Origin: Pegea sp. RAD2-039
Lineage: Eukaryota; Chordata; Thaliacea; Salpida; Salpidae
DNA: 64,000 bases
Assembly: GCA_034620365.1 (NCBI GenBank)
Contig: JAQGEQ010000061.1
Location: 431,025-495,024 of the forward strand
Direction: 5' to 3'
Shown one piece after another: positions 37,189 through 64,000 of this stretch; the stretch's first letter is position 1, and each line of letters starts with the position of its first letter. Under the pieces are notes generated by a model. The model was not told the DNA's origin, made no database searches, and was given only the letters and a program-made list of their open reading frames with translations. The position numbers and the translations under genes were made by a program.

Positions 37189-38469
37189 ACATCAACTGAG
37201 TTAAAGATGAAACTCTAATTGGTGGTGTAGTGAATTTATGTTATTTTTAATCAATAAATCATATCAACAAACAAATTTTGATTAATTATATTTATTAGAA
37301 TTGTAGTGAAAAAAGAAATTATTGACTAGGTTAGATACTCTAAGCATTTTCAGTAAAAGAGCTAAGTTTCAAACCTTAAGATAGTTCTAAGCTGCAAGTT
37401 AATAACACAGAAATAAAAATAAATAAAATTCCAGAAAACTTAATCTGAACAAAATTAATTAAATAAATTAAATTTGAAACTTAATATTGATTTTGACAAC
37501 TTGAAGTTATATCAAAAAGAGAAGTAACTTTGCAGGGTTATTTACATAATCTATTCAAGATGTTTGTCAAATAATCGACTACAGTATTTAAGGGTTTTGT
37601 GTTGGGTTTTTTTTGTTGACTTTATTAAAAAGTCAGAACATGAATAAATGAAATGCAAAGATATTCTTCTATGCATTTGCTATTAAATTGATATTTTAAG
37701 CCTTTGGAGAATTTAAAAATACTTTTTCTTTTAAACAATTGGTTTAGCTAAATATGTAATTATGTGTTTGACAATTTCAATTCAATAAAAACTGAAACTA
37801 CAATTACATCTGCTGTCGCAGAACTTATAAACGGTTATATTAAAAACAAAAAGAATCAAATCTATGTATGTTACATTTGAACTCACCATTAAACTGCTTG
37901 TGAGCTGTAAATATGTTAACTTGATAAGATTAAGAATGGTTTTGTATTTATTCAACAAGCGATGCTTTTTAACGGCAAATTTTTTAATGAAAGCAAATAC
38001 TGCACTTTTTAACTCGTGCCATAGTAGATTTTTCTAAATATTCTTTTAAAGATGAAAGATACAGAGTAATATCAACCATGCAAGCCAAATCAGCAAGTGC
38101 TTTTTGTCTTCAAGCTCGGGGTATCTTTCTTTCGAAAAATCTTATTTTAACTGAAATAAAACAAAGAATCTTTTCAAGACAACCAGCAAAGCTCAACCAA
38201 CACATCGACTATTATCAAATCACTATTGATAATATCAAGAATATTTTTTTAAATTATAATGATTCAATGTCTTGTTTACCAACATTTACTTTTTAAATTA
38301 GAACTTTTGGTATATCAAGATCCTTGGAAATCATTTGCATGAAAATCGAGCTTATTTTGAAACCAAAGGCTTCTCCTTTCATTAATTAAAATCATCAGAG
38401 ATTTAAACAACTTAGAATTAGTATTATAGTTGTCCAATTGATAGAAGGAATTCTGTTGATTTCGTGAAA
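37189..38469. other. 3' flank of the DIPK2-like gene, then intergenic
   Basis: AATAAA at 37253-37258, 65 nt past the stop, is the likely poly(A) signal. A 72-codon frame at 38078-38296 has no recognised similarity and I do not call it. The left border of the macro-repeat array lies at about 38470. Confidence 0.5.
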
Positions 38470-38692
38470 CTTTAAACTTTTCGCCAAGAACATCAGAAAA
38501 ATAACCTGATGAATGAGGAAAAGTGTTTTAAATACCTCCCAAAATCATCTGCAACTATAAATCAGTTGATATAGTTTTCAAAATATGACGTTACCATGAT
38601 ATTGTCTTGGGTTGCAGGGAATTTACTAATCGTGGCATCAGTGTATACGGATGCTGGTGTTCTTATATCTTAAAATATACGCCATTAGATAT

Positions 38693-38878
38693 TGTGGTAT
38701 AACAGTAAAGTATTTTGCTGCTGACGTAAATATTTTAAACGTCATTCTTCTATGATTCTGTTGCAGGTATCGCGTATCATTAGTATACTTATCGTTGCTA
38801 TTAGTAACTTTAACTTACTTAGTATAGATTTGAATAAGATTCTATTTGAATAAGTATATTAGTATTATTAATGTAACA
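38693..38878 (+). repeat. LTR of the array gypsy-like element, unit A
   Basis: Starts TGTGGTATAACA and ends TGTAACA, 186 bp, immediately ahead of gag. It aligns with the 3' LTR at 1220-1030. No matching 3' LTR is present in the unit. The 22 bp between the LTR and the gag ATG show no obvious tRNA primer-binding site. Confidence 0.6.
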
Positions 38879-38900
38879 AATTTTTTTTTTATAAAAACAA

Positions 38901-39690
38901 ATGGATATATTGTTGAAACCAAGAAAGCTGTTTATAGACCCAAATAGCCCCTCGGCATCCAGCAAACGGTGTTACTGGAAGAGAACTTTTACCAATTACA
39001 TAGAAGAGTGTGGGTCTAATTGAACAGAGAAGAGAAAATTGGCAGCGCTCGTTAACAGCAGAACCAAAGACGTGTACCAGTACTTTGAGATCTGTCAGAC
39101 TTGTGTAGAAGCTGAAGCGACACTGGAACGGTTGTATATAAAGAAACTAAATGACATTTTTGTACTTCATCTACTACGAACGGAGAAGCAGAAGCCAAGT
39201 TAGCCTATAAAAGACTTTCGATGTACTTTTGTGAGTTAAGCCAAGAACTATGTTTTTAAGAAAGCCACAGCAGCAGAACACAGGAGAGACATGATCAAAG
39301 ATTTATTTATAGACGGATTATCCTCATCAGATATAAGGCAACGGTTGTTAGATCATAAAAGTTTTGCATTAAAGGAAGCCTTTAACTAAGCAGTAACACG
39401 GGAGAATACTCGACGGAATAACCAATACTTTGGGCTGGCAGATCGGTTCAAGCTGCAGAAAAAGTAGTGAATTCGATAGAACTCAAGGAGGAGGACCGAG
39501 CGGAACCAACAGTAGCAACCATGAAAGAAGTTTGTTTAAATTGTGGAAGTAGTAAACTTCATGAATTTAAAAGATGCCCAGCTGGTTCGAACATGTTTCA
39601 AATGTGGGAAGAAGAGACACTGTAGTCTGGCTCGTCATCTTTAGAAGAGGCCTCCCAAGACACAGTCAGGAAGACAAAGTAAAGATGGCT
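38901..39690 (+). mobile_element. Truncated gag of a gypsy-like element, unit A
   Basis: From the ATG at 38901 the frame encodes a gag-like protein with several stops. The single CCHC knuckle (CLNCGSSKLHEFKRC) lies at about 39533. It ends where the dispersed GC-richer repeat begins. Homologous to the gag remnant at 2475-2100. Confidence 0.75.
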
Positions 39691-39940
39691 CATAAGATAG
39701 AAAAGCCTTTTTAGTCTGGCTAATGGCAACACTTCTATGAGACGCAAAACTCTGAATTTAAAACCGAATTTGGAGCCTCGCACGCGGTTTGTCACTGTAT
39801 GCAATGTCGTTCTGGCAGCTCCTTCGATTCCAGCTGGGTGCAGCTGCAACAGTCCGTATGTTCCACCGCATACTTTGTTGGCGTGGAGAGTGGAATCCTG
39901 CTGCATGGGCAACAACTAGATCTTCATAACTTCAGTCCTT
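39691..39940 (+). repeat. Dispersed GC-richer repeat, unit A copy
   Basis: Aligns with 26850-27110 and with the unit B and C copies. It is cut at its right end by the unit A deletion. Confidence 0.75.
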
Positions 39941-41180
39941 TGTGATTTTTCTAACATTTTATCGGATTAAGTTTTTTTTTAATTTTTATTGAAAGAACTT
40001 AATCATTAGTAACAAGTTTGAAGATGTCTCTGGATAAAAATATAAATTTTTGAAAGAAATTCTTACTCGCTGTTGATTAATTTACAACAAATTCTCTTTA
40101 GTTATGTCAACATTATTTTAAATGTGTAATATCTTGTAGAAATATAATTCAACTTTAATTATTTGATCTTCATGAAAAGTTGTAAGCCTCAAACTCTTCT
40201 GTGTTTTTAGAGAAAACTTTCTGTGTTCGGAGTCTGATGATAACTAATTTCACTAACTTGTTAGTTCACATTAATATTGCAATTGAAGTTACATTTAGAG
40301 ATATCATTCAATTATTTTCTTTCAAATTTTCCACTAAATGAAATTATTAAACTTGTAACAAATCAATTATTCAAAAAGTTTCATACTTTCCTTCATTCCA
40401 TTTTAACGTAATTTTATTTCATTTTTCAATCTAAAAAAGTTTTTCGATTTTTATCTAATTATAATGACAACTTTCAAAAACTCGTTTTAACAATTATTTT
40501 CTTTGTGTAGGGAAATTAAGTGCAGCAATGACTACGGAAGGATGGATATTCTCAACTCTTTAGTAATTTTGTATGTCTACCTTCTATCAGACAAAAGCTG
40601 TTTAGTATAGATAATAATGCTTAATCTGTAATCTATTAAACAAATTAGTTCTTACAATAATGTGATAATTAAATTTGTGAAACTTACTTATATAAGCTTG
40701 CTAGAAAGGACTCATTCAAATTATCTTGTAACTAGTAAGCTAATAGCTAATTTTAAAATGGAATAAAAGTTTTGATTTATTTAGTTAATTCAACACATGA
40801 CTGCAGATGACAAACTTTACAGCTCTTATAGCAAACTCAAAACAATATAACTGTAGAAAGTTAATGAAAAGTTCTAAAGTACCACAGTTTAAAAAATTAA
40901 TGTAAAATACTGCAAAACGGTAAGAGGTGCAGGTAAAGGTTAGCTAAAATACAGAGTAACAATCTGCGATAGGCTTGGTCGTGGTATTGTCTTTTTAAGT
41001 TTTGATTTAATGTTGTAAAACTCTGGCTAAATTATAGAAATACTAATTCCTTTGTGTTTTCAGTCATCAGCAAAGTCAGATTTAACTAGAAACAATATTT
41101 TTTTAATTTCAAACAGTTTTGATTCTGAGATTAAGACTCATATTATAGAACTTTAATCAAACATGTTTTTAATAATTTTA
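39941..41180. other. Unit A spacer, no gene seen
   Basis: Matches 49030-50278 and 58170-59410. No open frame longer than 60 codons and no recognised domain. Confidence 0.6.
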
Positions 41181-44100
41181 ACCGGGAGGATAAAACCTGA
41201 GACTGATAAAGACGATGATATCAAGACTTTTAATCAAATGTGTACTCAAAGCCTTGGTGCTGTGGACGCTCCAAAAGTTTCAATGACCAGACTCGGGGCA
41301 AAAAGATCAAATCATAAAAGACCGTTAAAAGTGTCCTTTCAGGAAAGATGGGACAAACGTAAGTTTCTTGCTAAGCTGTGTAAACTTAAGCAGGACGAAA
41401 AATTCCAGGGCATCAGAGTAGCACATGATATGTGTGAAGATGATCGCTTAGAAAATAAGCGTCTTCTAAAAGAGGCGTACAGCCGAAATCAGAAAGAGCA
41501 ACCAACTGATTTCAAATATAAAGTTCGAGGTCCACCATGGGCTTTAAAGATTGTGAAGGTCTTTTCAAAAAACGGAAGTGCAAAATAACCACTGGACCCA
41601 CATCACCCTTATTCAACCTCTCTTCGCACAGAATTATTAATACTATGCTTCCAGCCCAAGATAACAGTACACAGAAGCCTACCACCAAATCTTACAAGTG
41701 TCAAAAAGACAATTTTTCTTTTATATTACGTATGTTTTTCAACGCACGGTCAATTGTCAACAAAATTTTCGAATTGAAAGCTCTTTTGCTTTTTTCAAGA
41801 TTTTACATTTGTTTTCATTACCGAAACTTGGTTGAAACCCTTTTATCCTGACTCCTTTCTGGATGACAGTAATCTTTACCGTGCTTTGCGCTGTGATAGA
41901 CTGTTTGATAGAGGCGGCGGTGTTTGTGTAATCTATAAAACATCACTGGTACCCATGATTTCAAGAATTAAGATAAATACCATTGATTGCCCAGGATTTG
42001 AGATTATTGCTTTCAATTTTCATTACTCAAAGTCTAAGTTTTCCCGCTTTATATGTACCTACCTACCACCGTCTAAAATTAACGATGAGGTTACTATTAA
42101 GGCCTTATTGAAGGTTCTGAAAAGCCTTGTTTGTACTGAGATTTATATTCTCGGGGTATTTAATTTTAGTAGAATTGATTGGAATAACCCAAATTTAGCA
42201 TTCAATGGAAAAATGTTTAATTTGAATGGAGACAAAACTAATTTAGCCAATCTGAGTCATGTCTTTGTAAACTTCCTTGATGCCAATAATCTATCTCAGA
42301 TGGTTACTTTTCCGACCCAAGTTAGTGATAATACTTTGGATCTTCTCATCACATCAAAACCTGAGAACGTTATCTACGTTGATCAAAATGAACCTTTTGC
42401 TCTGAAATGCGATCACAACATGATTGAATTCAAGCTCCAACAAACTTTTTCTACGAACGTTAAAACTCCAAGCATACGGAACTTTTATCGTGGAAATTAT
42501 AACAGTATAAACAAGTTTTTATCAGGTGTTGACAGGATTTCTGTTTTCAACTCTACCGAAGACACCAATGATATCTACTCGAGGTTTACTAACATTGTTA
42601 ATGAGTCAATTAAAAAGTTCATACCTTTATATAGAGTCAACAAGAAACCACACTTGCCAAGATATTTAAGGAATTTACAGCATTTGAAAAACCTCTTATA
42701 CAAACAAACTAAAGCAGATCCTTCCATCAAACCTCTATACAAAGATCTTTGTCTAGTCTACAAGAAATCAGTTTATAGCCTCTATTTAGGAAGAGAAAGT
42801 GCAATCTTATCTTCACCTAGCGAGAAAACGTTTTTTGGCTTCATTAATCAAAAGCATAAGGCAAGATCTCATCTACCTCCCTTGCTTGATAACGCCAATC
42901 AGCTGGTGATGGAACCAAAGAATAAAGCTGAATTGCTAAACAAACAATTTGAAAAGGTTTTTATAACCGATGATGGCAATACTCCTACTATTTCCTACTC
43001 CAATATCCTTTCAAATATCTCTGAGATGGTAGATCTAGACATAACAGTTGATATAGTATCTAAGGCTATTTCTTCTCAAAAATCAACAGTTTCCAACACC
43101 CCAGATCAAATCCCAGCTTTGTTTTTAAGAAAAAGTACTTCTTCGTTAGCGCTACCCTTATCGCTACTCTTTAACATGACTCTTAAGCGGGGAAGACTTC
43201 CACAAATTTGGAAGAATGCTATTATTATTCCAATTTATAAGAAGGGTCCCAGAAACACTTAACTACAGACCAGTTTCGCTGACTTCGGTTATCTGCAGAA
43301 CTCAAGAACATATCATTCACAACCATATAACTAGCCATTTGACGGAGCATCATCTAATATCTGATGTCCAGCATGGCTTTGTTAAGCAAAGATCTTCTTT
43401 GACTCAACATCTCACTTTTTTCAATGAGCTTACAGCTCATTACGAAAGTAATACTCCATGTGACATCATATACCTTGATTTTGCTAAAGCTTTTGATTCT
43501 GTTCCACACAATAAGCTCATTACTGTATTGAAAAACATAAAAATCAGCAACTCTATCTTAAAATGGATTGAAGATTTCTTATCAGGTAGAACCCAACGAA
43601 CCCGTGTAGAAAGATCTTTATCTACTACTAGTAAAGTCACCAGCGGCGTTCCTCAGGGTTCCGTTCTGGGTCCACTTCTCTTTTTGATTTTCATTGAAGA
43701 CCTCATCAGAAGAATAATAACAGTAGACAATGTCAGTGTGTTTGTGTATGCAGATGACATCAAGCTATTATCTGATTCTCACTCAAAACTCCAAACTGCA
43801 CTAAACATTGTAGAAAACTGGTCTGCGAATTGGCGACTTAAAATCCAGCCAAGAAAGTCTGAAGTTATAACATTCTCCCGTAAGCCAGCTGCCAACTTCA
43901 GCAACCAATACTATATCAATGGATCAATTCTTGAACGAGTATCCTCAGTCATAGACCTCGGCATTACTCTGACATCTGACTTCAAATGGCACAGTTATGT
44001 TTCCAGAATCTTTGGGAAATCTATCAAGCTTGTCCACCTCATCATAAAGACTTTTAATTCTAAAGATCCATGATTTTTCGTCAACCTTTTCAAACTGTAC

Positions 44101-44743
44101 ATACGCCCTATTCTTGAAGACAATGTCAGTGCATGGATGCCATATCAAGTTGGTGATATCAGAAAAATCGAATCTGTTCAGGCAACATTTACGAGATTGG
44201 TTTGCAGGAAACTTAATATCAAATACGAGAGTTATAAGCATCGTCTCAGCTTCTTCAATCTAGATACTTTGGAAATCCGAAGAATTAAATACGACCTTAT
44301 TCTGATTTTTAAAATTATTCACAATCTAATTGATCTTCAGTTGGATGACTTCTTTTCCATTAGTCCCTCCCTCAAGTTATATCAACTTAGAAGACATAAA
44401 CTACATCTTAATAAGCCCACTCCACCAGCTACGTTAACCAGATTAAGTTTTTTCTCATACCGCACAATCAGTGCATGGAACAATCTGCCATCAGAGATTG
44501 TCATGTCAAAATCACTTATGTTGTTCAAAAAAAAGCTGAATTGTTATAATATCGCCAACATTGCCATTTCTAAACTGTGAATTTTTCTTTTTTACAATAC
44601 TATGATTCTGTGCAATTCTTCATTGTCATATGCTTTTTCGTTTACACGTCAAATAGATCTAATTTGTGAGAATGTGTGTTAGCGAGAGGTGCTCTCTTTA
44701 GGCACCCTCCAGATTTATTGTAATAAATAAATAAAATAAATAA
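41181..44743 (+). mobile_element. CR1/Jockey-type LINE, 5'-truncated, unit A
   Basis: Begins inside ORF1 (41181), with a roughly 30-bp deletion just after. The ORF1 tail runs to 41588. ORF2 has an AP endonuclease region (GGGVCVIYK near 41915; the reading frame breaks at about 41795) and a reverse transcriptase in a second frame (43216-44073: DFAKAFDSVPH, GVPQGSVLGP, YADD). A nonsense change (TGG to TGA) at 44071-44073 separates the C-terminal part (to 44580: WNNLPSEIV, no RNase H). The 3' end carries GTGTTAGCGAGAGGTGCTCT and an (AATAAATA)-type tail. The frameshift at about 43240-43262 is shared with units B and C. Confidence 0.93.
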
Positions 44744-45207
44744 TATTAATGAGCCTTTCTTGAAACTTATGTTGGGTACACTTATTCAGTATAACAGTAA
44801 AATAGTTTTAACAGGTTTTATATCTAACTATAATAATGAAAGTAGTTGGGGACAAAATTGTCATTTTTCAAAAAGTATGAAACAAGTACCACCAAAAACA
44901 GCTGATTTCATTAAGGGGCTTAGGTATTTATTAGTATGAGTAAAACAAAATGTTTGAATAAAGTTTATCAGATTGCTTAAGTTATTCAAATTTGTATAAA
45001 GTTATCGACGTGATACAAGAGCGCTAACTATATGCGTTCGCTCATGAAGCAAAATGAATAAAAGCTGTAGACTAGTAACAATCAAGCTGATGTGACTAAA
45101 ATCAAAGCTATTAAAAGAAAAAGAAGAAATCTTCTTGTTATTAGAAGTAAGGCAAACTAAGCTTGTACAAGTCGTTATTCTTCCATGAAAGATTCCGACT
45201 TGTTTAA
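44744..45207. other. Unit A to B junction spacer
   Basis: Non-coding spacer, repeated at 53864-54328 and 62992-63452. Confidence 0.6.
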
Positions 45208-45424
45208 ACTTTTCGCCAAGAACATCAAAAGAATAACTTGATGAAAGAGGAAAAGTGTTTTAAAAACCTCCCAAAATCATCTGCAACTATAAATCAGTTG
45301 ATATAGTTTTCAAAATATGACGTTACCATGATATTGTCTTGGGTTGCAGGGAATTCACTAATCTTGGCATCAGTGTATACGGATGCTGGTGTTCTTATAT
45401 CTTAAGATATACGTCATTAGATAT

Positions 45425-45610
45425 TGTGGTATAACAGTAATGTATTTTGCTGCTGACGTAAACGTGTTAAACGTCATTCTTCTATGATTCTGTTGCAGGT
45501 AGCGCGTATCGTTAGTATACTTATCGTTGCTATTAGTAACTTTAACTTACTTAGTATAGATTTGAATAAGATTCTATTTGAATAAGTATATTAGTATTAT
45601 TACTGTAACA
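45425..45610 (+). repeat. LTR of the array gypsy-like element, unit B
   Basis: 186 bp from TGTGG to TAACA, the same boundaries as in unit A. Confidence 0.6.
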
Positions 45611-45632
45611 AAGTCTGTTTTTATAAAAACAA

Positions 45633-46420
45633 ATGGATATACTGTTGAAACCAAGAAAGCTGTTTATAGACCCAAATAGCCCCTCGGCATCCAGCAAATG
45701 GTGTCACTGGAAGAGAACTTTTACCAATTACATGGAAGAGTGTGGTTCCAATTGGACAGACAAGAGAAAATTGGCAGCGCTCGTTAACAGCACAACTAAA
45801 GATGTGTACCAGTACTTTGAGATCTGTCAGACTTGTGTAGAAGCTGAAGCGACACTGGAACGATTGTATATAAAGAAACTAAATGACATTTTTGTACTTC
45901 ATCTACTACGAACGGAGAAGCAGAAGCCAAGTTAGCCTATAAAAGACTTTCGATGCACTTTTGTGAGTTTAGCCAAGAACTATGTTTTTAAGAAAGCCAC
46001 AGCAGCAGAACACAGGAGAGACATGATCAGAGATTCATTTATAGACGGATTATCCTCATCAGATATAAGGCAACGGTTGTTAGATCATAAAAGTTTTACA
46101 TTAAAGGAAGCCTTTAACTAAGCAGTAACACGGGAGAATACCCGACGGGATAGCCAATACTTTGGGCAGGCAGATCGGTTGAAGCTGCAGAAAAAGTAGT
46201 GAATTCGATAGAACTCAAGGAGGAGGACCGAGCGGAACCAACAGTAGCAACCATGAAAGAAGTTTGTTTAAATTGTGGAGGTAGTAAACTTCATGAATTT
46301 AAAAGATTCCCAGCTGGTTCGAACATGTTTCAAATGTGGGAAGAAGAGACTCTATAGCCTGGCTCGTCATCTTTAGAAGAGGCCTCCCAAGACACAGTCA
46401 GGAAGACAAAGTAAAGATGG
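45633..46420 (+). mobile_element. Truncated gag of a gypsy-like element, unit B
   Basis: Best-preserved gag start: 100 codons open from the ATG at 45633, then a stop at 45933-45935 and further stops. In this copy the last zinc-knuckle Cys codon has changed to Phe (at about 46307), so the knuckle is broken as well. It is non-functional. Confidence 0.75.
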
Positions 46421-46690
46421 CTCATAAGATAGAAAGACCTTTTTAGTCTGGCTAATGGCAACATTTCTATGAGACGCAAAACTCCGAATTTAAAACCGAA
46501 GTTGGAGCCTCGCACGCGGTTTGTCACTGTACGCATTGTCGTTCTGGCAGCTCCTGCGATCCCAGTCGGGTTTAGCTGCATCAGTCCGTCTGTTCCACCG
46601 CATACTTTGTTGGCGTGGAGAGTGGAATCCTGCTGCATGGGCAACAACTAGATCTTCATAACTTCTGCCCTGGCATATGTACAAATATAT
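46421..46690 (+). repeat. Dispersed GC-richer repeat, unit B copy
   Basis: Full copy of the block at 26850-27110, with a further hairpin-prone end (CCGTTCTCGGGTGACGG) near 46701. No gene. Confidence 0.75.
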
Positions 46691-46819
46691 TATGCATAAC
46701 CGTTCTCGGGTGACGGAGACAAAATACATAAAAAAAGCTTGATTAGTTTTTATTTTTTAATATTGTAAGATTCTTATAGAAATAGTTTGTGAAGGTAGCT
46801 TGCGATGTAGATATAGTCA

Positions 46820-47250
46820 TTCATTAAGATGTTAGTAAGTACCACTTAGATAATCTAAAATTTTCTCTTTTCAAGTAATAATGATTAATACCTTCCATTG
46901 ACGGATCTTCATCAGAACAACATTTTTTGCAGGATTGGTAATTGACATTACAAGCTTGTTTTGATGAAGTCGGCTTGTCACAACTTTTCTGTATACTGAA
47001 ACGTAGGTTTTTTGCCACTTATATATAAATCCACCATAGTTTTAACTTTCATAAAAAATTTTTAGTGTAACCAAATCAAATAGTTCGAATCGATTTCTTA
47101 TCTAAATAGAATCATTTATCACAAGGTAATTAATTTTATTAAAATTTACTACCATTATTCAATAAAATATAACCTATAACCTTACTCAAATAGAATTTAA
47201 CAAATAAATAATTTAATAAAGTATGGCTTGCTGGATCGTTTGGAAACACT
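46820..47250 (-). mobile_element. Inverted LINE 5' fragment, unit B
   Basis: Minus-strand copy of 8740-9090: 5' UTR plus the ORF1 N-terminus (NLRFSI, DKPTSSKQACNVN and a PHD-like cysteine cluster), opposite in direction to the main LINE of the unit. The ORF1 stretch is open for 64 codons but runs out into unrelated sequence. Confidence 0.85.
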
Positions 47251-48193
47251 AATCAAATATTTTGAAGAATTTATTTATTTATTTTAAAATATCAAATTTA
47301 TACCGACATTACACAAGTATGAATGGCTGTTTAGTTTTATTTATTCTATGTTTATATTTTAAAATCAAATTTAAATGATGATGTTTTTAATGAACATGAG
47401 GTGCAACTGAAAGTTAAAGGCTTTGAATGTCTTTAAAAATTAGAATCACAGTTTATTGAGTTTATTTATAGAATCCAATTTAGTTTTCATTTTAATTCGT
47501 CAAATATTCATATTGTTACATTTTAATTAAACATTTTAAAGTAATAGTTTATATTATTAAAAATAAGGCCTTGTGATAATAGACTCACACACATGTGACT
47601 CAGTTGATGACGTGGCCTAGTATAACTCGATGCTTAGCAGTTGGGAGAGTATTCTAGTATAGGCCTGATAAATTTGGAAGAAATATTTATTAGAATATGA
47701 ACAAGATGATAGCTTAAAGATATATTTTAACTATTTTTAACTTTATTAAGTTTCTACATCACGATAATTTCTTAATCTGTTTCTAAAAAGTGTATAACTT
47801 GCTTAAAATAAAATATTGTCTTTGGTAATAAAAAAGTTTTCTTAAATTATAAATTAAAGAAATATAGATTTGATTGCTTTTGTTATGAATAAAGTTGATT
47901 CTTTTTTAATCAAAATTAACTTTACCAATTGAAAACCTTAATAAATTATTTGATTATTTCAAAAAGTTGCAGTAACATAATTATTAATTTAACTATAATT
48001 ATACAAGAAAAATTTCATATTATGAGATATTTATTTTATCAAATCATTAATATTAAGTTGTTAATTAGTTAAGTTTAATTGTAGCTTAAACATTACATTT
48101 ATAAAAAGTTGTTCTAATATTTTATTTGAGTAAATTTTAATCTTTAAATGTTTTTTTTTCATATAGGTTTTTACTTCAGCTTTTTGAAGTCAT
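47251..48193. other. Ly6-like gene upstream region, unit B
   Basis: AT-rich non-coding DNA. It holds the short, less AT-rich stretch ACACATGTGACTCAGTTGAT at about 47592, which includes TGACTCA, an AP-1-type site, and is kept in unit C. This would be the promoter region. Confidence 0.4.
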
Positions 48194-49021
48194 ATGATAA
48201 TGGATTTAAAAATTAAAAGTTTTATCTTTTTACTTTTATGTCACTTTTTTGTGGCAGGTGAGCTATAATTATTATTTTACTTTTAGCTTTGAGGTTTTTG
48301 AGACCATTTTCACCCACAAATCAAATGTTTTTTCTGTTTGTAGGAGACTCTGTTCGATGTTACAAGTGTGCTCCAACCCTACAAATCTGTCCGGTTCCAT
48401 TGATTAGTACAACTGAATGTGGCCCATTTCAAGGATGCAACTATGGCCATTGTAAGTTTCCCTGCTGTATAAAATAATTAATTCTTTTTATTGATATGTT
48501 TATTATTTCAATTTTTATCAACTTTTATTTTTTTAGTCTTTTTTGGGTTGGCTACTAGAGGCTGTGCACCACTACATAAGTCTTTTTGTTCTGAAGGTAA
48601 TCTAATTTAAAACATCTTAAACTTATTTGTAATAAACAAAAAATCATTTTATCAAACTGTTTTAAAAATCGGTATTAGTTTTAGATTTTGAAACTACAAT
48701 AACTAGCAAGTTGTTTGAAGATAATTCTTTTAGTTTTTCACTTTTATACTAAATTATTACTCAAGTGAAACCCTTGTAGATCTTTGTAATGGAATTACAA
48801 AAGAAGAAATTCGCATTTTTAACAATTTTATGATAAATTTGGAGAAATTGTTTGCCAATGTAATTGCCATTGCTAAAGAAATGATCAGCAATATAGGACC
48901 CTGTTTACGGCGGCTGTTGGATTCAGTTGTTAAACCAATTGTTCAACCCATCATCAAATGTAGTCAAGTATGCATCTTTTCCTTTCCTGTTTGTAGATTA
49001 AATATATTTTATAATTTTTGA
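48194..49021 (+). CDS. Ly6/uPAR-like secreted cysteine-rich protein, unit B copy
   Basis: Four exons, all in phase 1: 48194-48257, 48344-48451, 48537-48596 and 48780-49021, giving 157 aa. Exon 1 encodes a signal peptide (SFIFLLLCHFFVAG). The mature part begins VRCYKC and has further cysteines spaced like a three-finger Ly6 domain, closing with the diagnostic DLCNG. After it comes a roughly 65-residue amphipathic helical extension (EKLFANVIAIAKEMI, CLRRLLDSVV), which is unusual for Ly6 proteins. No GPI-type hydrophobic tail is seen, so secretion is likelier than membrane anchoring. A GT after codon CAA (48970) could be a donor to an exon outside the repeat; I chose read-through to the stop at 49021. 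Ly6 proteins bind receptors or other proteins; its partner is unknown. I infer the function only from the fold. Confidence 0.68.
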
Positions 49022-50278
49022 TCTTTAAAATAAGTGATTTTTCTAACATTTTAAAGGATTAAGTTTTTTTTTATTTTTTATTGAAAGAACTTAATCATTA
49101 GTAACAAGTTTGAAGCTGTCTCTGGATAAAAATATAAATTTTTGAAATAAATTCTTACTCGCTGTTGATTAATTTACAACAAATTCTAATTAGTTATGTC
49201 AGCATTAGTTTAAATGTGTAATATCTTGTAGAAATATAATTCAACTTTAATCATTTGATCTTCATGAAAAGTTGTAAGCCTCAAACTCTTCTGTGTTTTT
49301 AGAGAAAACTCTCTGTGTTCGGAATCTGATGATAACTAATTTCACTAACTTGTTAGTTCACATTAATATTGCAATTGAAGTTATATTTAGAGATATCATT
49401 CAATTATTTTCTTTCAAATCTTCCACCAAATGAAATTATTAAACTTGTAACAAATCAATTATTCAAAAAGTTTCATACTTTCCTTCATTCCATTTTAACG
49501 TAATTTTATTTCATTTTTCAATCTAAAAAAGTTTTTCGATTTTTATCTAATTATAATGACAACTTTCAAAAATTCGTTTTAACAATTATTTTCTTTGTGT
49601 AGGGAAATTAAGTGCAGCAATGACTACGGAAGGATGGATATTCTCAACTCTTTAGTAATTTTTTATGTCTACCTTCTATAAGACAAAAGCTGTTTAGTAT
49701 AGATAATAATGCTTAATCTGTAATCTATTAAACAAATTAGTTCTTACAATAATGTGATAATTAAATTTGTGAAACTTACTTATATAAGTTTGCTAGAAAG
49801 GACTCATTCAAATTATCTTGTAACTAGTAAGCTAATAGCTAATTTTAAAATGGAATAAAAGTTTTGATTTATTTAGTTAATTCAACACATGACTGCAGAT
49901 GACAAACTTTACAGCTCTCATAGCAAACTCAAAACAATATAACTGTAGAAAGTTAATGAAAAGTTCTAAAGTACCAGAGTTTAAAAAATTAATGTAAAAC
50001 ACTGCAAAACGGTAAGAGGTGCAGGTAAAGGTAAAGGTTAGCTAAAATACAGAGTAACAATCTGCGATAGGCTTGGTCGTGGTATTGTCTTTTTAAGTTT
50101 TGATTTAATGTTGTAAAATTCTGGTTAAATTAAAGAAATACTAATTGCTTTGTGTTTTCAGTCATCAGCAAAGTCAGATTTAACTAGAAACAATATTTTT
50201 TTAATTTCAAACAGTTTTGATTCTGAGATTAAGACTCATATTATAGAACTTTAATCAAACATGTTTTTAATAATTTTA
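49022..50278. other. Unit B spacer, no gene seen
   Basis: Same sequence as 39941-41180 and 58158-59410; no coding content. Confidence 0.6.
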
Positions 50279-53200: not shown

Positions 53201-53862
53201 CGTCAACCTTTTCAAACTTTACATACGCCCTATTCTTGAATACAATGTCAGTGCATGGATGCCATATCAAGTTGGTGATATCAGAAAAATCGAATCTGTT
53301 CAGGCAACATTTACGAGATTGGTTTGCAGGAAACTTAATATCAAATACGAGAGTTATAAGCATCGTCTCAGCTTCTTCAATCTAAATACTTTAGAAATCC
53401 GAAGAATTAAATACGACCTTATTCTGATTTTTAAAATTATTCACAATCTAATTGATCTTCAGTTTGATGACTCCATTAGTCCCTCCCTCAAGTTATATCA
53501 ACTTAGAAGACATAAACTACATCTTAATAAGCCCACTCCACCAGCTACGTTAACCAGATTAAGTTTTTTCTCATACCGCACAATCAGTACATGGAACAAT
53601 CTGCCATCAGAGATTGTCATGTCAAAATCACTTATGTTGTTGAAAAAAAAGCTGAATTGTTATAATATCGCCAACATTGCCATTTCTAAACTGTGAATTT
53701 TTCTCGTTTACAATACTATGATTCTGTGCAATTCTTCATTGTCATATGCTTTTTCGTTTACACGTCAAATGGATCTAATTTGTGAGAATGTGTGTTAGCG
53801 AGAGGTGCTCTCTTTAGGCACCCTCCTTCACATTTATTGTAATAAATAAATAAAATAAATAA
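50279..53862 (+). mobile_element. CR1/Jockey-type LINE, 5'-truncated, unit B
   Basis: ORF1 tail at 50290-50712. ORF2 endonuclease in broken frames (50956-51792, 52004-52384). The reverse transcriptase is the longest in the window: 452 codons open at 52338-53696, with QHGFVKQRSS, DFAKAFDSVPH, GVPQGSVLGP, YADD, the thumb and the C-terminal WNNLPSEIV block. It shares the ORF2 frameshift at about 52380 with A and C, and the endonuclease frameshift at about 50915 with A only. 3' tail of AATAAATA repeats at 53840-53862. Confidence 0.94.
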
Positions 53863-54328
53863 TATTAATGAGCCTTTATGAAAATTATGTTGGGTGCACT
53901 TATTCAGTATAACAGTAAAATAGTTTTAACAGGTTTTCTATCTAACTATAATAATGAAAGTAGTTGGGGACAAAATTGTCATTTTTCAAAAAGTATGAAA
54001 CAAGTACCACCGAAAACAGCTGATTTCATTAAGGGGCTTAGGTATTTGTTAGTATGAGTAAAACAAAATGTTTGAATAAATTTCATCAGATTGCTTAAGT
54101 TATTCAAATTTGTATAAAGTTATCGACGTGATACAAAAGCGATAACTATATGCGTTCGCTCATGAAGCAAAATGAATAAAAGCTGTAGACTAGTAACAAT
54201 CAAGCTGATGTGACTAAAATCAAAGCTATTAAAAGAAAAAGAAGACATCTTCTTGTTATTAGAAGTAAGGCAAACTAAACTTGTACAAGTCGTTATTCTT
54301 CCATGAAAGATTCCGACTTGTTTAAACT
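53863..54328. other. Unit B to C junction spacer
   Basis: Non-coding, as in the other units. Confidence 0.6.
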
Positions 54329-54542
54329 TTTCGCCAAGAACATCAGAAAAATAACTTGATGAAAGAGGAAAAGTGTTTTAAATACTTCCCAAAATCATCT
54401 GCAACTATAAATCAGTTGATATAGTTTTCAAAATATGACGTTATCATGATATTGTCTTGGGTTGCAGGGAATTTACTAATCGTGGCATCAGTGTATACGG
54501 ATGCTGGTGCTCTTATATCTTAAGATATACGCCATTAGATAT

Positions 54543-54728
54543 TGTGGTATAACAGTAAAGTATTTTGCTGCTGACGTAAACGTGTTAAACGTCATTCTTC
54601 TATGATTCTGTTGCAGGTAGCGCGTATCGTTAGTATACTTATCGTTGCTATTAGTAACTTTAACTTACTTAGTATAGATTTGAATAAGATTCTATTTGAA
54701 TAAGTATATTAGTATTATTACTGTAACA
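54543..54728 (+). repeat. LTR of the array gypsy-like element, unit C
   Basis: 186 bp, TGTGG to TAACA. Confidence 0.6.
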
Positions 54729-54751
54729 AAGTTTTTTTTTTATAAAAACAA

Positions 54752-55540
54752 ATGGATATACTGTTGAAACCAAGAAAGCTGTTTATAGACCCAAATAGCC
54801 CCTCGGCATCCAACAAATGGTGTTACTGGAAGAGAACTTTTACCAATTACATGGAAGAGTGTGGGTCTGATTGAACAGACAAGAGAAAATTGGCAGCGCT
54901 TGTTAACAGCAGAACCAAAGATGTGTACCAGTACTTTGAGATCTGTCAGACTTGTGTAGAAGTTGAAGCGACACTGGAACGGTTGTATATAAAGAAACTA
55001 AAGGACATTTATGTACTTCATCTACTACGAACGGAGAATTAGAAGCCAAGTTAGCCTATAAAAGACTTTCGATGTACTTTTGTGAGTTTAGCCAAGAACT
55101 ATGTTTTTAAGAAAGCCACAGCAGCAGAAAGGAGGAGGGACAAATCAGAGATTCATTTATAGACGGATTATCCTCATCAGATATGAGGCAACGGTTGTTA
55201 GATCATAAAAGTTTTGCATTAAAGGAAGCCTTTAACTAAGCAGTAACACGGGAGAATACCCGACGGGATAACCAATACTTTGGGCTGGCAGATCGGTTGA
55301 AGCTGCAGAAAAAGTAGTGAATTCGATGAAACTCATGGAGGAGGACCGAGCGGAACCAACAGTAGCAACCATGAAAGGAGTTCGTTTAAATTGTGGAAGT
55401 AGTAAACTTCATGAATTTAAAAGATGCCCAGCTGGTTCGAACATGTTTCAAATGTGGGAAGAAGAGACACTGTAGTCTGGTTCGTCATCATTAGAAAAGG
55501 CCTCCCAAGACACAGTCAGGAAGACAAAGTAAAGATGGCT
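54752..55540 (+). mobile_element. Truncated gag of a gypsy-like element, unit C
   Basis: As in units A and B, but with more damage: a stop about 40 codons in (at about 54873), a stop at about 55040 and small deletions near 55130. The zinc-knuckle cysteines are kept except the first, which is changed to Arg (ttcgttta at about 55380). Confidence 0.72.
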
Positions 55541-55805
55541 CACAAGATAGAAAAACCTTTTTAGTCTGGCTAATGGCAACAGTTCTATGAGACGCAAAAC
55601 TCCGAATTTAAAACCGAAGTTGGAGCCTCGCACGCGGTTTGTCACTGTACGCATTGTCGTTCTGGCAGCTCCTGCGATTCCAGCTGGGTGCAGCTGCATC
55701 AGTCCGTCTGTTCCACCGCATACTTTGTTGGCGTGGAGAGTGGAATCCTGCTGTATGGGCAACAACTAGATCTTCATAACTTCTGCCCTGGCATATGTAC
55801 AAATA
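55541..55805 (+). repeat. Dispersed GC-richer repeat, unit C copy
   Basis: Full copy, nearly identical to that in unit B. Confidence 0.75.
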
Positions 55806-55939
55806 TATTATGCATAACCGTTCTCGGGTGACGGAGACAAAATACATAAAAAAAGCTTGATTAGATTTTATTTTTTAATATTGTAAGATTCTTATAGAAA
55901 TAGTTTGTGAAGGTAGCTTGCGATGTAGATATAATCATT

Positions 55940-56370
55940 CATTAAAATGTTAGTAAGTACCACTTAGATAATCTAAAATTTTCTCTTTTCAAGTAATAAT
56001 GATTAATAGTTTTAATATCTTCCATTGCCGGATCTTCATCAGAAAAATATTTTTTGCAGGATTGGCAATTGACATTACAAGCTTGTTATGATGAAGTCGG
56101 CTTGTCAAAACTTTTCTGTATACTGAAACGTAGATTTTTTGCCACTTATATATAAATCCACTATAGTTTTTACTTTCATAAAAAATTTTAGTGTAACCAA
56201 ATCAAATAGTTCGAATCGATTTCTTATCTAAATAGAATCATTTATCACAGGATAAATAATTTCATTAAAATTTACTACCATCATTCAATAAAATATAACC
56301 TATAACCTTACTCAACTAGAATTTAATAAATAAATAATTTAATAAAGTATGGCTTGCTGGATCGTTTGGA
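55940..56370 (-). mobile_element. Inverted LINE 5' fragment, unit C
   Basis: Same as 46820-47250, with a stop and a 12-bp insertion that close the ORF1 frame. Confidence 0.82.
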
Positions 56371-57329
56371 AACACTAATCAAATATTTTGAAGAATTTAT
56401 TTATTTATTTTAAAATATCAAATTTATACCGACATTACACAAGTATGAATGGCTGTTTAGTTTTATTTATTCTATGTTTATATTTTAAAATCAAATTTAA
56501 ATGATGATGTTTTTAATGAACAAAAAAACATGAGGTGCAACTGAAAGTTAAAGGCTTTGAATGTCTTTAAAAATTAGAATCACAGTTTATTGAGTTTATT
56601 TATAGAATCCAATTTAGTTTTCATTTTAATTCGTCAAATATTCAAAATGTTACATTTTAATTAAACATTTTTAAGTAATAGTTTATATTATTAAAAATAA
56701 GGCCTTGTGGTAATAGACTCACACACATGTGACTCAGTTGATGACGTGACATAGTATAACTCGATGCTTAGCAGTTGGGAGAGTATTCTAGTATAGGCCT
56801 GATAAATTTGGAAGAAATATTTATTAGAAAAAGAACAAGATGATAGCTTAAAGATATATTTTAACTATTTTTCACTTTGTTAAGTTTCTATATCACGATA
56901 ATTTCTTAATCTGTTTCTAAAAATTGTATAACTTGCTTAAAATAAAATATTGTCTTTGGTAATAAAAAAGTTTTCTTAAATTATAAATTAAAGAAATATA
57001 GATTTGTTTGCTTTTGTTATGAATAAAGTTGATTCTTTTTTAATCAAAATTAACTTTACAAATTGATAACCTTAATAAATTATTTGATTATTTCAAAAAG
57101 TTGCTGTAACATAATTATTAATTTAACTATAATTTTACAAGAAAAATTTCATATTTTGAGATATTTATTTTATCAAATCATTAATATTAAGTTGTTAATT
57201 AGCTAAGTTTAATTGTAACTTAAAGATTACATTTATAAAAAGTTGTTCTAATATTTTTGTTGAGTAAATTTTAATCTTTAAATGTTTTTTTTTTTCACAT
57301 AGGTTTTTACTTCAGCTTTTTGAAGTCAT
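56371..57329. other. Ly6-like gene upstream region, unit C
   Basis: Counterpart of 47251-48193, with small indels; the TGACTCA stretch is kept at about 56730. Confidence 0.4.
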
Positions 57330-58157
57330 ATGATAATGGATTTAAAAATTAAAAGTTTTATCTTTTTACTTTTATGTCACTTTTTTGTGGCAGGTGAGTT
57401 ATAATTATTATTTTACTTTTAGATTTGAGGTTTTTGAGACCATTTTCACCCACAAATCAAATGTTTCTTCCGTTTGTAGGAGACTCTGTTCGATGTTACA
57501 AGTGTGCTCCAACCCTACAAATCTGTCCGGTTCCATTGATTAGTACAACTGAATGTGGCCCATTTCAAGGATGCAACTATGGCCATTGTAAGTTTCCCTG
57601 CTGTATAAAATAATTAATTCTTTTTATTGATATTTTTATTATTTCAATTTTTATCAACTTTTATTTTTTTAGTCTTTTTTGGGTTGGCTTCTAGAGGCTG
57701 TGCACCACTACATAAGTCTTTTTGTTCTGAAGGTAATCTAATTTAAAACATCTTAAACTTATTTGTAATAAACAAAAAATCATTTTATCAAACTGTTTTA
57801 AAAATCGGCATTAGTTTTAGATTTTGAAACTACAATAACTAGCAAGTTGTTTGAAGATAATTCTTTTAGTTTTTCACTTTTATACTAAATTATTACTCAA
57901 GTGAAACCCTTGTAGATCTTTGTAATGGAATTACAAAAGAAGAAATTCGCATTTTTAACAATTTTATGATAAATTTGGAGAAATTGTTTGCCAATGTAAA
58001 TGCCATTGCTAAAGAAATGATCAGCAATATAGGACCCTGTTTACGGCGGCTGTTGGATTCAGTTGTTAAACCAATTGTTCAACCCATCATCAAATGTAGT
58101 CAAGTATGCATCTTTTCCTTTCCTGTTTGTAGATTAAATATATTTTATAATTTTTGA
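57330..58157 (+). CDS. Ly6/uPAR-like secreted cysteine-rich protein, unit C copy
   Basis: Tandem duplicate of the gene at 48194. Exons 57330-57393, 57480-57587, 57673-57732 and 57916-58157; all four are open, all splice sites are kept and the product is again 157 aa. Only two amino-acid changes from the unit B copy were seen by eye (Thr to Ser before GCAP in exon 3, Ile to Asn in the helical extension, ANVNAIA), while introns and spacers carry more differences. Retained frames beside heavily damaged transposon frames suggest that the gene is under selection or very recently copied. The same uncertainty about the final exon applies. Confidence 0.68.
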
Positions 58158-59410
58158 TCTTTAAAATTATGTGATTTTTCTAACATTTTAAAGGATTAAG
58201 TTTTTTTTTATTTTTTATTGAAAGAACTTAATCATTAGTAACAAGTTTGAAGATGTCTCTGGATAAAAATATAAATTTTTGAAATAAATTCTTACTCGCT
58301 GTTGATTAATTTACAACAAATTCTATTTAGTTATGTCAGCATTAGTTTAAATGTGTAATATCTTGTAGAAATATAATTCAACTTTAATTATTTGATCTTC
58401 ATGAAAAGTTGTAAGCCTCAAACTCTTCTGTGTTTTTAGAGAAAACTCTCTGTGTTCGGAGTCTGATGATAACTAATTTCACTAACTTGTTAGTTCACAT
58501 TAATATTGCAATTGAAGTTATATTTAGAGATATCATTCAATTATTTTCTTTCAAATCTTCCACCAAATGAAATTATTAAACTTGTAACAAATCAATTATT
58601 CAAAAAGTTTCATACTTTCCTTCATTCCATTTTAACGTAATTTTATTTCATTTTTCAATCTAAAAAAGTATTTCGATTTTTATCTAATTATAATGACAAC
58701 TTTCAAAAATTCGTTTTAACAATTATTTTCTTTGTGTAGGGAAATTAAGTGCAGCAATGACTACGGAAGGATGGATATTCTCAACTCTTTAGTAATTTTT
58801 TATGTCTACCTTTTATCAGACAAAAGCTGTTTAGTATAGATAATAATGCTTAATCTGTAATCTATTAAACAAATTAGTTCTTACAATAATGTGATAATTA
58901 AATTTGTGAAACTTACTTATATAAGTTTGCTAGAAAGGACTCATTCAAATTATCTTGTAACTAGTAAGCTAATAGCTAATTTTAAAATGGAATAAAAGTT
59001 TTGATTTATTTAGTTAATTCAACACATGACTGCAGATGACAAACTTTACAGCTCTCATAGCAAACTCAAAACAATATAACTGTAGAAAGTTAATGAAAAG
59101 TTCTAAAGTACCATAGTTTAAAAAATTAATGTAAAACACTGCAAAACGGTAAGAGGTGCAGGTAAAGGTTAGCTAAAATACAGAGTAACAATCTGCGATA
59201 GGCTTGGTCGTGGTATTGTCTTTTTAAGTTTTGATTTAATGTTGTAAAATTCTGGCTAAATTAAAAAAATACTAATTCCTTTGTGTTTTCAGTCATCAGC
59301 AAAGTCAGATTTAACTAGAAACAATATTTTTTTAATTTCAAACAGTTTTGATTCTGAGATTAAGACTCATATTATAGAACTTTAATCAAACATGTTTTTA
59401 ATAATTTTAA
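58158..59410. other. Unit C spacer, no gene seen
   Basis: Counterpart of 49022-50278. Confidence 0.6.
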
Positions 59411-62400
59411 CCGGGAGGATAGAGAAAACAATGTCATCATCTTTGGTGTCTCTGAGACTGATAAAGACGATGATATCAAGACTTTAAATCAAATGTGCAC
59501 TCAAAGCCTTGGTGCTGTGGACGCTCCAAAAGTTTCATTGACCAGACTCGGGGCAAAAAGATCAAATCATAAAAGACCGTTAAAAGTGTCCTTTCAGGAA
59601 AGATGGGACAAACGTAAGTTTCTTGCTAAGCTGTGTAAACTTAAGCAGGACGAAAAATTCCAGGGCATCAGAGTAGCACATGATATGTGTGAAGATGATC
59701 CCTTAGAAAATAAGCGTCTTCTAAAAGAGGCGTACAGCCGAAATCAGAAAGAGCAACCAACTGATTTCAAATATAAAGTTCGAGGTCCACCATGGGCTTT
59801 AAAGATTGTGAAGGTCTTTTCAAAAAACGGAAGTGCAAAATAACCACTGGACCCACATCACCCTTATTCAACCTCTCTTCGCACAAAATTATTAATACTA
59901 TGCTTCCAGCCCAAGATAACAGTACACAGAAGCCTACCACCAAATCTTACAAGTGTCAAAAATACAATTTTTCTTTTATATTAGGTATGTTTTTCAACGC
60001 ACGGTCAATTGTCAACAAAATTTTCGAATTGAAAGCTCTTTTGCTTTCTCAAGATTTTTCATTTGTTTTCATTACCGAAACTTGGTTGAAACCCTTTTAT
60101 CCTGACTCCTTTCTGGATGACAGTGATCTTTTTCGTGCTTTGTGCTGTGATAGACTGTTTGATAGAGGCGGCGGTGTTTGTGTAATCTATAAAACATCAC
60201 TGGTACCCATGATTTCAAGAATTAAGATAAATACCATTGATTGCCCAGGATTTGAGATTATTGCTTTCAATTTTCATTACTCAAAGTCTAAGTTTTCCCG
60301 CTTTATATGTACCTACCTACCACCGTCTAAAGTTAACGATGAGGTTACTATTAAGGCCTTATTGAAGGTTCTGAAAAGCCTTGTTTGTCCTGAGATTTAT
60401 ATTCTCGGGGTATTTAATTTTAGTAGAATTGATTGGAATAACCCAAATTTAGCATTCAATGGAAAAATGTTTAATTTGAATGGAGACAAAACTAATTTAG
60501 CCAATCTGAGTCATGTCTTTGTAAACTTCCTTGATGCCAATAATCTATCTCAGATGGTTACTTTTCCAACCCAAGTTAATGATAATACTTTGGATCTTCT
60601 CATCACATCAAAACCTGAGAACGTTATCTACGTTGATCAAAATGAACCTTTTGCTCTGACATGCGATCACAACATGATTGAATTCAAGCTCCAACAAACT
60701 TTTTCTACGAACGTTAAAACTCCAAGCATACGGAACTTTTATCGTGTAAATTATAACAGTATAAACAAGTTTTTATCAGGTGTTGACTGGATTTCTGTTT
60801 TCAACTCTACCGAAGACATCAATGATATCTACTCGAGGTTTACTAACATTGTTAATGAGTCAATTAAAAAGTTCATACCTTTATATAGAGTCAACAAAAA
60901 AACCACACTTGCCAAGATATTTAAGGAATTTACAGCATTTGAAAAACCTCTTATACAAACAAACTAAAGCAGATCCTTCCATCAAACCTCTATACAAAGA
61001 TCTTTGTCTAGTCTACAAGAAATCAGTTTATAGCCTCTATTTAGGAAAAGAAAGTGCAATCTTATCTTCACCTAGCAAGAAAACGTTTTTTGGCTTCATT
61101 AATCACAAGCTTAAGGCAAGATCTCATCTACCTCCCTTGCTTGATAACGCCAATCAGCTGGTGATGGAACCAAAGAATAAAGCTGAATTGCTAAACAAAC
61201 AATTTGAAAAGGTTTTTATAACCGATGATGGCAATACTCCTACTATTTCCTACTCCAATATCCTTTCAAATATCTCTGAGATGGTAGATCTAGACATAAC
61301 AGTTGATATAGTATCTAAGGCTATTTCTTCTCTAAAATCAACAGTTTTCAACACCCCAGATCAAATCCCAGCTTTGTTTTTAAGAAAAAGTACTTCTTCT
61401 TTAGCGCTACCCTTATCGCTACTCTTTAACATGACTCTTAAGCGGGGAAGACTTCCACAAATTTGGAAAAATGCTATTATTACTCCAATTTATAAGAAGG
61501 GTCCCAGAAACACTTAACTACAGACCAGTTTCGCTGAATTCGGTTATCTGCAGAACTCAAGAACATATCATTCACAACCATATAACTAGCCATTTGACGG
61601 AGCATCATCTAATATCTGATGTCCAGCATGGCTTTGTTAAGCAAAGATCTTCTTTGACTCAACATCTCAATTTTTTCAATGAGCTTACAGCTCATTACGA
61701 AAGTAATACTCCATGTGACATCATATACCTTGATTTTGCTAAAGCTTTTGATTCTGTTCCACACAACAAGCTCATTACTGTATTGGAAAACATAAAAATC
61801 AGCAACTCTATCTTAAAATGGATTGAAGATTTCTTATCAGGTAGAACCCAACGAACCCGTGTAGAAAGATCTTTATCTACTACTAGTAAAGTCACCAGCG
61901 GCGTTCCTCAGGGTTCCGTTCTGGGTCCACTTCTCTTTTTGATTTTCATTGAAGACCTTATCAGAAGACTAATAACAGTAGACAATGTCAGTGTGTTTGT
62001 GTATGCAGATGACATCAAGCTATTATCTGATTCTCACTCAAAACTCCAAACTGCACTAAACATTGTAGAAAACTGGTCCGCGAATTGGCAACTTAAAATC
62101 CAGCCAACAAAGTCTGAAGTTATAACATTCTCCCGGTAAGCCAGCTGCCAACTTCAGCAACCAATACTATATCAATGGATCTATTCTTGAACGAGTATCC
62201 TCAGTCATAGACCTCGGCATTACTCTGACATCTGACTTCAAATGGCACAGTTATGTTTCCAGAATCTTTGGAAAATCTATCAAGCCTGTCCACCTCGTCA
62301 TAAAGACTTTTAATTCTAAAGATCCATGGTTTTTCGTCAACCTTTTCAAACTGTACATACGCCCTATTCTTGAATACAATGTCAGTGCATGGATGCCATA

Positions 62401-62991
62401 TCAAGTTGGTGATATCAGAAAAATCGAATCTGTTCAGGCAACATTTACGAGATTGGTTTGCAGGAAACTTAATATCAAATACAAGAGTTATAAGCATCGT
62501 CTCAGCTTCTTCAATCTAGATACTTTGGAAATCTGAAGAATTAAATACGACCTTATTCTGATTTTTAAAATTATTCACAATCTAATTGATCTTCAGTTTG
62601 ATGACTTCTTCTCCATTAGTCCCTCCCTCAAGTTATATCAACTTAGAAGACATAAACTACATCTTAATAAGCCCACTCCACCAGCTACGTTAACCAGATT
62701 AAGTTTTTTCTCATACCACACAATCAGTACATGGAACAATCTGCCATCAGAGATTGTCACTTATGTTGTTCAAAAAAAAGCTGAATTGTTATAATATCGC
62801 CAACATTGCCATTTCTAAACTGTGAATTTTTCTCTTTTACAATACTATGATTCTGTGCAATTCTTCATTGTCATATGATTTTTCGTTTACACGTCAAATA
62901 GATCTACTTTGTGAGAATGTGTGTTAGCGAGAGGTGCTCTCTTTAGGCACCCTCCTTCACATTTATTGTAATAAATAAATAAAATAAATAA
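59411..62991 (+). mobile_element. CR1/Jockey-type LINE, 5'-truncated, unit C
   Basis: ORF1 tail at 59421-59843, overlapping the start of ORF2. This copy keeps the longest endonuclease frame (59792-60967: FNARSIVNK, FITETWL, DRGGGVCVIYK, FSRIDWNNP, LDLLITS), which is broken in A and B. Private damage: an extra A in the A-run at about 60897, an extra G at 62135 that ends the reverse transcriptase after YADD, a TGA at about 62534 and a short deletion near 62760. The shared frameshift lies at about 61513. Confidence 0.93.
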
Positions 62992-63452
62992 TATTAATGA
63001 ACCTTTCTTGAAACTTATGTTGGGTGCACTTATTCAGTATAACAGTAAAATAGTTTTAACAGGTTTTATATCTAACTATAATAATGAAAGTAGTTGGGGA
63101 CAAAATTGTCATTTTTCAAAAAGTATGAAACAAGTACCACCAAAAACAGCTGATTTCATTAAGGGGCTTAGGTATTTGATACTATGAGTAAAACATAATG
63201 TTTGAATAAATTTTATCAGATTGCTTAAGTTATTCAAATTTGTATAGAGTTAGCGACGTGATACAAAAGCGCTAACTATATGCGTTCGCTCATGAAGCAA
63301 AATGAATAAAAGCTGTAGACTAGTAACAATCAAGCTGATGTGACTAAAATCAAAGCTATTAAAAGAAAAATAAGAAATCTTCTTGTTATTAGAAGTAAGG
63401 CAAACTAAGCTTGTACAAGTCGTTATTCTTCCATGAAAGATTCCGACTTGTT
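62992..63452. other. Unit C to D junction spacer
   Basis: Non-coding, as in the other units. Confidence 0.6.
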
Positions 63453-64000
63453 TAAACTTTTCGCCAAGACCATCAGAAAAATAACTTGATGAATGAGGAA
63501 AAGTGTTTTAAATACCTCCCAAAATCATCTGCAACTATAAATCAGTTGATATAGTTTTCAAAATATGACGTTACCATGATATTGTCTTGGGTTGCAGGGA
63601 ATTTACTAATCTTGGCATCAGTGTATACGGATGTTGGTGTTCTTATATCTTAAGATATACGCCATTAGATATTGTGGTATAACAGTAAAGTATTTTGCTG
63701 CTGACGTAAACGTGTTAAACGTCATTCTTCTATGATTCTGTTGCAGGTAGCGCATATCGTTAGTATACTTATCGTTGCTATTAGTAACTTTAACTTACTT
63801 AGTATAGATTTGAATAAGATTCTATTTGAATAAGTATATTAGTATTATTACTGTAACAAAGTTTTTTTTTATAAAAACAAATGGATATACTGTTGAAACC
63901 AAGAAAGCTGTTTTTAGACCCAAATAGCCCCTCGGCATCCAGCAAATGGTGTCACTGGAAGAGAACTTTTACCAATTACATAGAAGAGTGTGGGTCTAAT
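63453..64000 (+). repeat. Macro-repeat unit D, start only
   Basis: The first 548 bp of a fourth unit, including its LTR (63673-63858) and the first 40 codons of gag (ATG at 63881), up to the window edge. The array continues beyond the window for an unknown number of units. Confidence 0.93.

Follow-up and report, generated by a model that had tools for sequence, protein, structure and literature searches.

Tandem duplications that carry a whole gene have been described in the Drosophila simulans complex (PMC7919458), and the three-finger pheromone genes of salamanders (PMC8904931) encode secreted three-finger proteins that were multiplied by gene duplication. Among Ly6/uPAR proteins, the SmLy6 proteins of Schistosoma mansoni combine, in the sections of PMC4492491 used here, a hydrophobic N-terminus, a C-X-X-C start, a C-N end with four residues between the last two cysteines, and recent duplicates. 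The locus of Pegea sp. RAD2-039 described here shares something with each of them. It consists, like the Drosophila duplications, of tandem copies that carry a whole gene, and that gene has all of the above features of SmLy6, its likeness to the salamander genes being one of type only. Unlike the duplications presented in the cited sections of PMC7919458, the present array holds a LINE in three of its five units and lacks it in two. Repeats were fragmented and misassembled according to the same sections, as is probable for the present array. A search of one open-access literature collection returned no report of this locus.

A short tandem array at the end of a contig

The window analysed here comprises the last 64,000 nt of contig C259 (431025-495024 of 495024) and has a G+C content of 31%; the assembly searched amounts to 105.7 Mb in 387 contigs. 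Self-comparison of the window revealed head-to-tail units starting at 38471, 45203, 54321 and 63451, so that the macro-repeat array of the preliminary description is real and its unit starts were one to eight bases off. When shifted by one unit, the array aligns with itself over 14,997 columns at 97.4% identity. Units B (45203-54320, 9118 bp) and C (54321-63450, 9130 bp) are complete, with the LINE and an intact gene, and both follow the order described earlier, namely gag-like fragment, dispersed repeat, inverted LINE 5' end, four-exon gene and 5'-truncated LINE. The LINE is absent from the units E and F presented below, and unit A (38471-45202, 6732 bp) retains the gag-like part, the 3' flank, the LINE and the tail while its gene was removed by a 2.4-kb deletion (39939/39942, against 46672-49033 of unit B). 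The stub of a unit D (63451-64000, 550 bp) is cut by the contig end. Units A to D lie on the plus strand, as does the left flank of the array (36200-38470), which is single-copy except for one short weak match on contig C20.

The array shows the head-to-tail copies, the one repeated junction and the single-copy flanks of a tandem segmental duplication, and it looks like an ordinary short one, young and of known type, in which mobile elements landed later. That a single unit was merely stacked by the assembler is extremely improbable: the array does sit at a contig end and contig C60, which carries further units, looks chimeric, but the units diverge by 1-7% in most 300-column blocks, differ in the presence of the LINE, and include one without the gene.

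Elsewhere in the window, we detected a p130Cas-type gene (SH3, Serine_rich and CAS_C domains; 20105-22420, minus strand) that points to an animal genome and whose single unbroken frame encodes 771 residues, a partial p25-alpha (TPPP) gene (30484-30837, minus strand) and an imperfect 21-bp tandem repeat of about 19 copies (15084-15525) with long open frames on both strands. An Rfam scan of the window gave no match at the gathering score, and a check for viral contigs gave 24 pattern matches, none of which was confirmed. In the assembly as a whole, COX1 gave no match (8 of 14 control genomes gave one), and neither did the arthropod cuticle family Chitin_bind_4, a weak negative since no control genome matched either.

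The probable second half of the array

Two further units, E (5536 bp) and F (5503 bp), are located on contig C60, and neither contains the LINE. Over its 550 positions, the D stub shows 0 differences from the start of unit E, against 17, 16, 15 and 16 differences from A, B, C and F, respectively. C259 and C60 are also identical over the last 1865 bases of the window. The two contigs differ at 3 positions within 61017-64000 and at 34 within 59410-61016, the latter being close to the level found between the array LINE and a dispersed copy. The preliminary description had the array running off the window; it does reach the edge, but this edge is the end of C259, and the two LINE-free units and the right flank are found on C60. 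Apart from one short weak match each, neither the C259 left flank nor the C60 right flank has a second copy in the assembly, which argues that together they would bound one single array.

LINE2, the LINE of C60 at which the sequence type changes, is chimeric. Diagnostic sites, at which A, B and C share a base that distinguishes them from dispersed copies (LINE1 of C60, L048, L053, L054 and L056), show dispersed-type bases in its 5' half (60411 and 60412) and array-type bases in its 3' half (61118, 62170, 62581 and 62657); this count leaves out five of the nine dispersed loci (L049-L052 and L055), which were minus-strand, badly aligned and apparently in the wrong orientation. By eye, no target duplication fitting both sides of LINE2 was found. 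Beyond it, segment 294825-296899 of C60 gave 74 listed matches, all on C60 at or beyond 294825 and on C254, C255, C89 and C93. These come from the 40 candidates scored among 852, and weaker copies may exist elsewhere. Open frames of this region (L011 5294-5701 and L012 1522-2739) presumably resemble C2H2 zinc fingers. As an observation in its own right, a zinc-finger-like repeat family found, among the matches listed, only on those contigs (on C60 from 294825) would represent a large zinc-finger gene expansion.

The identity of D with the start of E, the single-copy flanks and the change of sequence type at LINE2 together argue that C60 is very probably chimeric, having been misjoined within a LINE (C60:290700-294824, L011) to an unrelated zinc-finger repeat region. 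From the sequences of both contigs, we conclude that they would hold one locus consisting of the left flank, the five units A, B, C, E and F (36,019 bp in all, with four gene copies) and the right flank; further units could have been lost or collapsed between C and E. Alternatively, there may be two real arrays, if a recent ectopic exchange between the array LINE and a dispersed LINE moved the array end to a correctly assembled C60. The chimeric LINE2 would fit such an event, and identical ends are likewise expected if LINEs truly exchanged sequence very recently. Yet the assembly holds just one left and one right flank, near-identity over 3 kb demands a very recent event, the sequence type switches exactly at LINE2, and C259 stops within the shared stretch as it would at an unresolved fork. 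We regard two arrays as unlikely, and return below to a single locus split between two contigs.

Origin of the unit and arrival of the LINE

Successive units meet at GATTCCGACTTG/TTTAAACTTTTCG, the left flank enters the array as ..CGTGAAAC/TTTAAACTTTTCG, and the array passes into the right flank as GATTCCCACTT/AAACAATTTT. The exact 19-base junction occurs at four places in the loci compared (B/C, C/D, the start of E, and E/F), and the A/B junction reads the same as the others. Since no repeat common to both breakpoints was found by eye, we propose that the unit was made by end joining with a short filler, as judged from this one junction.

The units contain retroelement pieces. In unit B, a dispersed retroelement fragment with broken frames (45425-46417, plus strand) is what we take to be gag-like from the appearance of its reading frames; Pfam returned no gag family for the two such pieces tried. 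Its listed dispersed relatives begin no earlier than unit base 223 (40 of 1421 candidates scored), which means that, among the matches listed, the unit begins 222 bp ahead of the dispersed part of the fragment. The inverted LINE 5' end (46885-47208, minus strand) is 75% identical to window positions 9098-8795, and 84 bp of it match the 5' part of a C60 LINE at 77%. The 5'-truncated LINE of unit B (50273-53859, plus strand), which we assume to be CR1-like, has broken frames with endonuclease (Exo_endo_phos_2) and reverse transcriptase (RVT_1) domains. It is followed by a 461-bp unit tail (53860-54320, plus strand) that extends up to the unit junction and ends in GATTCCGACTTG, directly before TTTAAAC.

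In units B and C, the LINE is flanked on both sides by TAATA, and the site is empty in E and F; the LINE thus entered after the first duplication and is a later passenger in the array. With its two domains, A/T-rich tail and short target duplication, it is like other 5'-truncated LINE insertions of the endonuclease/RVT_1 type, and differs from them in that it was copied onward inside a tandem unit. A first look at its family gave 3541 candidates genome-wide. The 40 that were scored comprise the query itself and 39 matches to it at 98%, including the copy in array unit A, which suggests that the family had a recent burst.

A driving role of transposons in the array is not supported, since the LINE postdates the first duplication and the junction lacks a repeat common to both breakpoints. 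Recombination between LTR or LINE copies could in principle have built the unit, for the units contain a LINE from a highly abundant family as well as the gag-like fragment. We rejected it as the maker of the unit because E and F are LINE-free with an empty site, the gag-like fragment starts within the unit (222 bp in, among the matches listed) and the junction shows no homology by eye, and we attach very little probability to it.

A four-exon gene encoding a Ly6-like protein

The gene in unit B, on the plus strand, has exons at 48200-48257 (with a putative signal peptide), 48344-48451, 48537-48596 and 48780-49021 (with the stop codon). Its copy in unit C runs from ATG to stop at 57336-58157 (plus strand), with four exons of the same lengths and a constant offset of 9136 to copy B. 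All introns are in phase 1 with GT-AG borders, and the product has 155 residues. The gene was found at four places at 98-100%, two on C259 (B and C) and two on the minus strand of C60. Copies B, C and E are open, copy F stops at codon 149 of 155, seven residues early, and the copy of A is deleted.

Searches of the assembly (5 of 5 and 19 of 19 candidates scored) gave these four copies plus one diverged paralog on contig C52, at about 309.18-309.85 kb (L013 4184-4845), of which the initial search had shown a 77-bp match. Its exons of 58, 108, 60 and 185 bases have the lengths of exons 1-3 of the array gene and a different tail. The two proteins share 51 of 85 residues over codons 1-85, with a dN of 0.29 and a dS of 0.70. 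The four-exon gene is real, as shown by this shared structure and divergence pattern, and the excess of dS over dN indicates that it was constrained before or outside the array. A weaker place on C11 matches at 36% and contains a stop.

To further compare the product with the Ly6/uPAR domain, we used the description of PMC4492491. Cysteines are located at residues 25, 28, 35, 45, 51, 65, 73 and 78, the last followed by N79. The C1-X-X-C2 motif is present as C25-YK-C28 in both the array gene and the C52 paralog, and a C-terminal C-N, expected 3-5 residues from the previous cysteine, is present as C73, four residues, C78-N79. The eight cysteines span 54 residues (C25-C78), against eight or ten in 60-110 residues in the domain description, and they are fewer than the ten or more used there as a search rule. 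The N-terminus is hydrophobic (best 19-residue mean of 1.67), and the product is probably secreted. A GPI site calls for a hydrophobic C-terminus; the last 19 residues average 0.94 in the array protein and 0.01 in the C52 paralog, with charged residues among them. No Pfam profile exceeded its cut-off for the array protein, and CD59 alone gave a match below it (E 0.055, 13.6 against 33.9 bits). A genome search with UPAR_LY6 gave one place each on C258 and C293, both below threshold and outside the array, and a PDB profile search gave four hits (E 0.26-1.8), none of them to a protein named as three-finger.

The protein thus differs from SmLy6, as presented in the cited sections of PMC4492491, in having eight cysteines (the C7-C8 pair is missing), a slightly short domain, a tail of about 75 residues, no clear GPI signal and no Pfam match over cut-off. 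It resembles a Ly6 domain minus the C7-C8 pair, and because no Pfam profile is over cut-off we call it Ly6-like rather than filing it as a member of the Ly6/uPAR family. Judging from the cysteine pattern and the N-terminus, the gene may well encode a secreted protein of the three-finger type.

Exchange between units and selection on the gene

Informative sites divide the five units in conflicting ways, revealing histories that change from one part of the unit to another. Variable sites among A, B and C amount to 83/3516 in the LINE and 29/1214 in the 3' flank, against 71/1198 at the unit start. The exchange between units proposed earlier is borne out by these conflicting splits and by the lower variation of the LINE and 3' flank.

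Variation was also counted among the gene-bearing copies B, C, E and F. The unit start has 97/1461 variable sites, the segment 46700-48199 has 66/1499 and the tail 31/458, whereas the exons have 10/468, the introns 10/354 and the 3' flank 39/1237. Exon variation does not differ from that of introns (p = 0.65) or the 3' flank (p = 0.33); it is lower than that of the unit start and the tail (p < 0.001) and, weakly, than that of 46700-48199 (p = 0.03). As gene, introns and 3' flank share the low variation, exchange is a likelier explanation of it than coding constraint. Of the ten changes in exons, 3 are silent, 6 missense and 1 nonsense, for neutral fractions of 0.24, 0.72 and 0.04, a total that gives selection tests low power. 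No exon indel was observed where 1.3-2.0 are expected (P 0.13-0.28), so intact frames over 468 bases are unsurprising at such divergence. According to the preliminary description, the gene alone kept all frames and splice sites; these are indeed intact in B and C, but the gene is not singled out, and we rejected it as the sole conserved part since its exons are as variable as the introns and the 3' flank.

The notion that exchange multiplies a dosage-selected or fast-evolving secreted gene fares no better. Copies might be kept for more product or for diversity of a fast-evolving secreted protein, given that three of the four have complete open frames and the remaining one is almost complete, and that B, C and E differ by three exon changes, all of which replace amino acids. 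Selected amplification is nevertheless not supported, because exons vary like introns and the 3' flank and the exon changes are near neutral proportions (with n = 10, at low power); in addition, one copy was deleted and one has an early stop. We hold it to be improbable. The same doubtful standing applies to the idea that the low-variation zone of gene, 3' flank and LINE (about 2-3% variable sites, against 6-7% at the unit ends) is a conversion zone in which both a secreted gene and a dead LINE are held uniform across units, i.e., a young concerted-evolution array in which the LINE insertion date-stamps the exchanges and the gene copies are kept for dose. Likewise, a reproductive role or positive selection as in the salamander pheromone genes, in the cited sections of PMC8904931, is not supported for the array gene. 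With four gene copies, the amplification is modest.

We consider the following account probable as a whole. A 5.5-kb stretch holding an old four-exon Ly6-like gene and older broken retroelement pieces would have been duplicated in tandem through the end joining of two unlike sequences, and unequal crossing over and gene conversion would then have produced the five-unit array (A, B, C, E and F). The LINE, having inserted into a single unit, would have been passed on among A, B and C, with the empty site retained in E and F, while unit A lost its gene by deletion and F acquired its early stop. The extra gene dose would be a by-product. The assembly would have split this locus, C259 keeping the left flank with A, B and C, and C60 keeping E, F and the right flank, with C60 wrongly joined inside a LINE to the zinc-finger repeat region.

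The array also shows how such a locus breaks assembly, since both its other half and a contig that is probably chimeric came to light through identity at the contig end. Rather than the large amplification under selection that it first suggested, the locus illustrates step by step the birth of a short tandem gene array, the arrival of a passenger LINE, the exchange of sequence among units and the loss of a gene.
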